DNA of 64,000 bases, from positions 1 to 64,000 of the forward strand of contig CALIJE010000027.1 of NCBI GenBank assembly GCA_938017825.1, in the 5' to 3' direction. Below are positions 54,330 through 60,537 of the stretch, piece by piece. The position numbers were made by a program, and so were the translations under genes. Position 1 is the first letter of the stretch. Every line of letters starts with the position of its first letter. Source of the DNA: an uncultured Flavobacteriaceae bacterium (lineage in GTDB: Bacteria > Bacteroidota > Bacteroidia > Flavobacteriales > Flavobacteriaceae). The notes below the pieces were generated by a model, which was not told where the DNA came from, did not search any database, and saw only the letters and a program-made list of their open reading frames with translations.

Positions 54330-55045
54330 CTAATTCCTATTGTTCACTTCCGAAGCCCCTGAAAGGTCTTGATTTGAAATAACGGCATTTCCCTTATAGT
54401 TCAACGTACTTGCCCCTGATGCCTCAACGTCGATAGATTCATTGACCATTAGAAAGGCTTCACTTGCTCCTGAAAGATCTATTCTAAGTCTATCGATTGA
54501 AAAGTCAAAATCCCTTATCTCACTGCTGCCTGAAAGGTCGGCATTCAGAATTTCCGCCGTACCATAAATGTCGGTATGTGATGCTCCACTAAGGTCTAGT
54601 TCCAGGCGATCTAGAGCCACTTAAAGTCGGAAGAGCCTGAGAGATCAATTCTTCCATTGGAAATAACCCATTGATTTTCCAAATATAAGGTAGAGGCACC
54701 TGAGATATCGAACTCGGTTATGTTCTTAGTTACGATATAGGCGTTAAGCGTGGCGTTGCCGCGAATTTGCGTGAACTTTTTGAGCTTTATGACCAATGAA
54801 TTGCCATCGCGCTTAACGGTAATACGGTCATGAAGATTCTCATTGGCTTCGATACGAATACTCTCTTCGGTATCAGAAAAAGACACATACACGTTAAAGG
54901 CATTTGAAACCTCCAAATTCGAAAAATCGGGAATGTTATAGGTCAACGAACTGACCTCCTCAGAGGCGCGAATTTTTTCATAATCACAGGAAGTGAACAC
55001 CACTGTAAATAGCATAAGTCCGAGTACAATTGATTTTGTTTTCAT
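54330..55045 (-). pseudogene. Head GIN (DUF2807-like) domain lipoprotein split by an apparent single-base frameshift
   Basis: ORF 54611..55045 (MKTKSIVLGLMLFTVVFTSCDYEK...DLSGSSDFKWL*) continues in the -1 frame as 54330..54620 (..ALDRLELDLSGASHTDIYG...). Both halves carry the same DLSGAS beta-repeat. Confidence 0.75.
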
Positions 55046-59082: not shown

Positions 59083-60537
59083 ATGAATGTGAACGGTACA
59101 ATTTATGCGATCTACTCTTTAGAGGATAAAGACTTGGTTCTAAATCTTTTGAATCGTTTAAAGTCCTCTGATAAAGACTCCAATAACACCATTTGGGATG
59201 ATGACCCTATTAAATCAGGGCAAGCCTGGTCGCCAAAAGATGCAACACGACTGCAAAAAGCAGATGCCTTTTTTCTTTTTGCCAGCAATTCGTTTATGTA
59301 TTCCGAATTTATTCAGCAGAATGAATTTAAAATGATCATTGACCGCTACAAGGATGAAAACACCACCGTAATCCCAATACTGATCGACAATTGTCCCTGG
59401 GATACTGAGTTTAGTTCTGATGATTACAATTTCAGTTTTAAGGAACTACAGGTATTGCCAAAGAATAGGAAACCTATTAGCAGGTGGGATTCAAGAGATG
59501 ATGCGCTGAATCATATTGCGAAAAAACTAAAGAAGATAATTGCACCCGAAATTGAAAACGCTAGGGAACAAGATCTTGATAAAAAACAGGATTCGGATTC
59601 CATCGAACTTAAAAAGGAAGAACAAATAGCACTTGATTTTACTGAAGAAAAAGAGGATAAAACACAGCAAGTAGTCGATTCTGAATCCGAGAAGCGTTTA
59701 GCGGAGGAAATCCGTTTGAGGAAAGAGGCGGAGGCCAAGCGCAGTGCATTAGAGGAGAAAAAGCAAATAGAAAGGGTAAAAGCTGAACAAAAAGCTAAGG
59801 AATTGGCACAGATCAAGGCTAATGAAGAACAAAAATTGCATGAGGCCGCGAAAATCAACCAAAAACCGGAACATGAAGTCGAACCGATTACAACTCCCCC
59901 TGACCCAAAGGAAGTGCCTATTTCTGATGATTATGAAGAAGAAGAAAATGTATATCGGAACAACAATAGGCTTAAGAATAGGGCACTCATTGGTATTGCT
60001 GCCGCTCTGGCCGCATTAGCCATTTGGTTTTTTTTAGACGACAAGGCCCCTTCGAAAATATCGGCGACTGAAGCAACAAAGATTGAAAACGTATCTGGCG
60101 AGGAGGTTGAAAAAATTGATGCGCCAAAGGAAGTGCCACAACAACAAAAGGAAATTTTGCAAGAACTCGTTGTCGGCGACTCCTATAAGGGTGGAATCAT
60201 CTTTAAAATTGATGCCTCCGGAAAATCGGGAACACTTGCTTCCTATGATGATGTAGGACCCATGTCTTGGAGTGCGGCCATGAAAATACATGAGGAATTA
60301 GGAGAGGGTTGGCGTTTACCCAGTCTTGACGAATTAAGATTAATGCGCCAGACCATAGGGCAAGGAGCGACCAATGATGGGGAATTTTCAGACGGACTTT
60401 ATTGGAGTGCTACCGACTATGATGAATACCAAGCACGCGTAATGCGGTTTCGTGATGGAAATACTTCATACCATTATAACAAAGTTGCCGAGAATAGAAA
60501 ATTTCGAGTTCGCCCTATTCGTGACTTTACCCGCTAG
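59083..60537 (+). CDS. TIR domain - coiled coil - TM - DUF1566 (Lcl_C-like) protein
   Basis: N-term TIR-like (IYAIYSLEDKDLVLNLLNRL..., FLFASNSFMYSEFIQQNEFKMI, VIPILIDNCPWDTE...LQVLPKNRKPISRWDSRDDALNHIAKKLKKII); charged Ala/Glu/Lys coil; TM ALIGIAAALAALAIWFFL; C-term YKGGIIFKID...WSAAMKIHEELGEGWRLPSLDELRLM...YWSATDYDEYQARVMRFRDG...KFRVRPIRDF. Confidence 0.85.
   Translation: MNVNGTIYAIYSLEDKDLVLNLLNRLKSSDKDSNNTIWDDDPIKSGQAWSPKDATRLQKADAFFLFASNSFMYSEFIQQNEFKMIIDRYKDENTTVIPILIDNCPWDTEFSSDDYNFSFKELQVLPKNRKPISRWDSRDDALNHIAKKLKKIIAPEIENAREQDLDKKQDSDSIELKKEEQIALDFTEEKEDKTQQVVDSESEKRLAEEIRLRKEAEAKRSALEEKKQIERVKAEQKAKELAQIKANEEQKLHEAAKINQKPEHEVEPITTPPDPKEVPISDDYEEEENVYRNNNRLKNRALIGIAAALAALAIWFFLDDKAPSKISATEATKIENVSGEEVEKIDAPKEVPQQQKEILQELVVGDSYKGGIIFKIDASGKSGTLASYDDVGPMSWSAAMKIHEELGEGWRLPSLDELRLMRQTIGQGATNDGEFSDGLYWSATDYDEYQARVMRFRDGNTSYHYNKVAENRKFRVRPIRDFTR

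Follow-up and report, generated by a model that had tools for sequence, protein, structure and literature searches.

What does a bacterial protein do that carries a TIR domain at one end and an Lcl_C (DUF1566) domain at the other, with a membrane helix in between? This question is raised by an intact open reading frame with an ATG start at positions 59083–60537 (+) of the 64,000-nucleotide stretch of DNA that has been analysed here (the window). From the reading frame and its homologues, the whole gene encodes a protein of 484 amino acids in which a TIR domain is followed by a charged helix, a transmembrane (TM) helix, and Lcl_C. In its mode of action the conserved protein probably resembles a simple Toll-like receptor, with a lectin-like domain outside and a TIR enzyme inside. 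In the form that we prefer, with a confidence slightly above even, it would be an inner-membrane receptor for a fixed ligand in which clustering activates a cytosolic TIR NADase.

An earlier note on this DNA, made from the letters alone, had counted an architecture confined to this genome as evidence against its reading. In a search that covered 301 genomes from the window's taxonomic family, 10 from its genus, and named contigs, the architecture recurs in 17 proteins, including that of the window, which run from TIR through a charged rod, a single TM helix, and a linker of ~45 residues to Lcl_C. These proteins span at least 10 genera, and one named relative, from the Flavobacteriaceae bacterium NBU2977, indicates that the family is probably Flavobacteriaceae. 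All 11 of the 11 aligned family members match both PF13676 (TIR_2) and PF07603 (Lcl_C). Most of the sampled genera lack the gene, as do half of the genus genomes that were searched (n = 10), and it is therefore dispensable. A separate TIR-TM-Lcl_C gene with a different TIR has been observed at L045 8071–9418 (G192), where a second, overlapping frame encodes a further Lcl_C domain, perhaps because of a frameshift.

The N-terminal domain (residues 1–155; 59083–59547, +), a putative cytosolic enzyme, has a TIR fold, as the earlier note had supposed. PF13676 matches residues 11–106 with E = 3.5e-8 and 34.4 bits, above the Pfam cut-off of 28. AlphaFold (AF2) models of this domain and of Lcl_C have been built on alignments of the 17 family proteins and are fairly confident. 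The top Foldseek matches of the TIR model (pLDDT 85.5) are mostly TIR domains, among them BtpA (4lzp, probability 1.00), with probabilities of ~1.0 and E-values of only ~2e-3. A PDB search with the single sequence gave nothing useful and family profiles were required; with these, the domain matches the CRISPR-associated TIR protein Cat1 (9mud, E = 5e-5). The PADLOC profile of ThsB also matches the window TIR (E = 9.7e-16).

The TIR domain has a mean column identity of 58% and 13 invariant residues, which in the 17-protein alignment include Y11, W38, S68, F71, E81, F82, and W106. The earlier note had placed a candidate catalytic Glu in the segment SEFIQQNEF, which holds two. The first, E75, varies within the family, while the second, E81 (codon 59323–59325, +), is invariant in 17 of 17 proteins, and the candidate is thereby narrowed to E81. 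This residue lies in the helix after strand D and aligns with the Glu of Cat1 and the Glu of the plant TIR 3jrn, a position known to be catalytic in TIR NADases. By this alignment, E81 is the putative catalytic Glu of a TIR NADase. NADase activity is common among the bacterial TIRs of anti-phage systems, and TIR domains may also serve as non-enzymatic scaffolds.

The C-terminal domain (residues 358–484; 60154–60534, +) is a putative periplasmic ligand-binding domain of the Lcl_C/DUF1566 type. When the whole protein is searched against Pfam, PF07603 matches residues 392–480 with E = 1.8e-7 and 31.9 bits, just below the cut-off of 34.9, and the score reaches 34.9 in a six-frame search when neighbouring matches are counted. 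The AF2 model (pLDDT 79.5) has the C-terminal domain of the Legionella collagen-like protein Lcl (8q4e) as its first-ranked Foldseek match (E = 1e-5, TM-score 0.69), and the same structure is the best profile match (E = 4e-5). The matches of the aligned family members and the structural match agree with the DUF1566 assignment that had been made from the sequence. With 32 invariant residues and a mean column identity of 73%, Lcl_C is more conserved than the TIR domain. The Legionella domain forms trimers and binds sulphated glycosaminoglycans; for DUF1566, the authors of that work propose carbohydrate recognition and/or trimer formation (PMC11162425). Unlike the window protein, however, Legionella Lcl is a secreted adhesin with a collagen-like stalk (PMC11162425), and it has no TIR.

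The two domains are separated by a rod rich in Glu, Lys, Arg, and Ala (residues 166–300; 59578–59982, +) and by the TM helix (residues 301–319; 59983–60039, +; mean Kyte-Doolittle 2.22). Across the family the rod varies in length from 75 to 701 amino acids, yet there is always one TM helix, at the equivalent place in each of the 17 proteins, which extends to the family what the earlier note had seen in this protein. The same note had described the rod as a charged coiled coil. The rod is better explained as a single charged alpha-helix, since the heptad a/d hydrophobic pattern is not above that of shuffles (p = 0.57), while the i,i+4 salt bridges exceed shuffles (p = 0.05 in the window protein, <0.01 in 10 of 16 others). 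Counted over the 15 residues to either side of the TM helix, charge is more positive on the N-side in 15 of the 17 proteins, and the two sides are equal in the window protein (+1/+1) and in one further member. The positive-inside bias on which the earlier note relied is thus seen in most of the family but not, by this count, in the window protein itself. From the flank bias, TIR inside and Lcl_C outside is the likelier topology.

In the mechanism that we propose, the single-pass protein would sit in the inner membrane with its C-terminal Lcl_C in the periplasm. The Lcl_C domain, predicted to have a C-type-lectin-like fold, may trimerise as that of Legionella Lcl does, and would bind a single conserved ligand, for which a glycan of the envelope or the extracellular space, or some other molecule at the surface, is the likeliest candidate. 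Ligand binding would cluster the receptor, and this clustering would be relayed through the TM helix and the charged rod to the N-terminal cytosolic TIRs. The TIR domains would then assemble and cleave NAD+ via the catalytic E81, yielding a signal nucleotide or NAD+ depletion, with either defence or envelope signalling as the output. The domains, the TM helix, the conservation, the recurrence of the architecture, and the fixed tip are seen directly in the sequences and models, while ligand binding, trimerisation, and NAD cleavage are suggested by homology with related domains.

Like the animal Toll-like receptors, the window protein would combine an outer sensing domain, one TM helix, and a cytosolic TIR. 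Unlike them, it has the reverse domain order, replaces leucine-rich repeats by a lectin-like domain, and retains the putative catalytic Glu in its TIR; the likeness is an analogy only, and descent is not claimed. Thoeris ThsB and Cat1 share TIR sequence similarity and the equivalent Glu with the window protein, but the latter is membrane-anchored and has its own outer domain. Membership of a Thoeris system has been rejected since no match to a SIR2_2 (ThsA-type) partner has been found in the window's genome (87% complete). The TIR systems characterised in bacteria mostly respond to cytosolic events, and if a conserved TIR receptor carries its sensor outside, bacterial transmembrane TIR signalling would become directly testable. 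In the literature collection that was searched, no paper held both "TIR domain" and "DUF1566", and "Lcl_C" with "TIR" returned only unrelated papers.

The strongest new support for the receptor-like design that the earlier note had put forward comes from Lcl_C domains that have been joined independently to other proteins, and from a hypermutated tip in the TIR examples among these. In a phylum-wide Lcl_C profile search, the genomes of another family were found to carry TIR-TM-rod-Lcl_C proteins and a Ser/Thr kinase-TM-Lcl_C protein (L071/L122). Genes in which a Ser/Thr-kinase-like N-terminus is joined to a C-terminal Lcl_C, a receptor-kinase-like architecture, are located at L122 397–1911 and 2710–4428 and at L126 4573–6045. 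The TIRs of this other family score 10–16 bits against the TIR profile of the window family, while their Lcl_C domains score 50–64 bits, and the TM helix precedes the rod in their TIR-TM-Lcl_C proteins but follows it in the window family. The distant TIRs and the opposite order of TM helix and rod suggest that these proteins were probably assembled separately. Since Lcl_C has been joined separately to TIR-TM and to kinase-TM proteins, it appears to have been recruited repeatedly as the outer end of signalling proteins.

In two of the other family's TIR-TM-Lcl_C genes, the mismatches between the last 150 bases and a nearby near-repeat fall nearly all at template adenines (15 of 17 in one gene, 20 of 22 in the other), and a reverse transcriptase lies within the same locus as each gene. 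As read from the sequence, adenine-specific mismatches together with a reverse transcriptase are the signature of a diversity-generating retroelement (DGR), and the Lcl_C tip is the DGR variable region. The TIR-TM-Lcl_C genes targeted by DGRs, whose loci also hold the template repeat and a reverse transcriptase, are at L118 2013–3398 and at L121 8649–10034 and 10634–12118 (G506, G544). The genomes G506 and G544 also carry additional Lcl_C genes with varying tips. DUF1566 is a common DGR target (PMC4159848, PMC6642488), and DGR variable proteins that combine a TIR or kinase with a C-type-lectin-fold domain have been described (PMC10907252, PMC7517822). DGR targets with a TIR and DGR targets with a DUF1566 domain are thus already known, each on its own.

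In the window protein, the segment aligned with the DGR-hypermutated one is the Lcl_C tip at residues 438–465 (60394–60477, +). Because a DGR hypermutates the tip in the other family's TIR proteins, the tip face is suggested as the ligand-binding side of the domain. In the tip alignment, many of the hypermutated columns are nearly invariant in the window family (L439, Q450, D458, N460, S462, Y463, H464). Should the tip serve as the ligand face in the two groups alike, the window family would read a fixed ligand. The fixed tip could instead be structural or a trimer interface; a structural role of its residues is compatible with the conservation of the rest of the segment, whose mean entropy in the window family (0.89 bit) is only slightly above that of the DGR-equivalent columns (0.73 bit). 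Like the DGR variable proteins, the window protein places a signalling or effector domain at the N-terminus and a C-type-lectin-like domain at the C-terminus. Unlike them, it has a nearly invariant tip; the 3' end of its gene has no template-like repeat within the window, and the genome (87% complete) has no RVT_1 match, all of which speaks against the gene as a DGR target. It is possible, although we hold this only tentatively and consider it doubtful, that the phylum holds two versions of the Toll-like design with TIR inside and Lcl_C outside, one fixed, as in the window family, and one independently assembled, with a tip re-randomised by a retroelement, as in the other family. If true, the two versions would be a bacterial counterpart of fixed and diversified immune receptors. 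The fixed and retroelement-diversified tips offer a natural comparison for ligand-site mapping.

The output of the receptor has also been considered in the light of its genomic context. On one side of the window gene is a group of minus-strand genes, among them those for an ECF sigma factor and a membrane protein; on the other is a gene for an amidohydrolase, and the histidine operon is located further upstream. No defence neighbours or mobile context have been found around it, nor has a dedicated partner gene, in agreement with the earlier observation that the gene stands alone. In many homologues, three of the same genus among them, the gene is located downstream of comM at a gap of 107 bases to several kb; a comM operon has been considered and is not claimed since these gaps vary. 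In two genomes, that of the window and G302, the TIR gene is missing from the comM site and is found near the his genes instead. A 168-amino-acid open reading frame at the comM site of G306 has been tested as a TIR remnant and is none. In another locus (L159, G018:C1:575500–589000), comM is split by an insertion of ~11 kb with serine-recombinase-like genes.

The divergence of the TIR-Lcl_C protein tracks that of ComM (rho 0.78, from points that are not independent), and the GC content of the gene (0.411, against 0.410 for the window) and its GC3 are ordinary, which argues against recent horizontal transfer. The proximity of many homologues to comM and the shared divergence point to mostly vertical inheritance. 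A scan of viral contigs with the family alignment found no relative, the phage collection held none, and the plasmid collection gave only matches to the TIR part, none of which covers 80% of the query; no relative with both domains is present among the three. By its sequence record, the gene looks mostly vertically inherited, with losses and relocations, rather than like a mobile defence gene.

Two other readings, one of housekeeping signalling and one of defence, share the anatomy of the clustering receptor and differ in output. In the first, which we regard as rather unlikely, the protein is a housekeeping receptor of the envelope or surface state, and recognition of a self glycan or cell-wall intermediate leads the TIR either to produce a second messenger or to serve as an adaptor. 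Vertical inheritance at ordinary GC, the fixed tip, and the greater conservation of Lcl_C relative to TIR are all consistent with this role, but the absence of the gene from the majority of the sampled genera and from half of the searched genomes of the genus, and the lack of a dedicated partner gene, fit it less well. In the second, an unlikely reading in our judgement, the protein is a membrane-anchored abortive-infection effector, whose Lcl_C responds on the periplasmic side to damage of the envelope or to a component of a phage, and whose TIR depletes NAD+, stopping the infected cell. The patchy spread over genera and the profile matches to ThsB and Cat1 agree with such a role, as does the general finding that bacterial TIRs are commonly anti-phage NADases. 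The surroundings of the gene, however, are of a housekeeping kind, many loci lie in the vicinity of comM with divergence that follows ComM, and the viral, phage, and plasmid collections hold no two-domain relative. The putative ligand face is also fixed rather than caught in an arms race. An anti-phage effector role is therefore only one possibility for a gene that is chromosomal, mostly vertical, and fixed in its putative ligand surface.

A structural envelope protein with a TolA-like rod and a non-catalytic TIR serving purely for oligomerisation would suit the long charged rod of highly variable length and its weak TolA similarity (E = 0.069, probably composition only), but is very improbable, as such a protein would have no need to keep the invariant E81 and TIR core residues, and the rod is cytosolic in the favoured topology, unlike that of TolA.

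Two minor observations can be added. In the long homologues L035, L036, L038, L039, and L041, a KKNGLARYNYQFKTAK-like motif is repeated in the rod, and these may be docking repeats. Elsewhere in the window, at 54330–55045 (−), two overlapping open reading frames of 144 and 96 amino acids resemble the two parts of a single GIN/adhesin-like protein that a frameshift or an assembly error might have separated.
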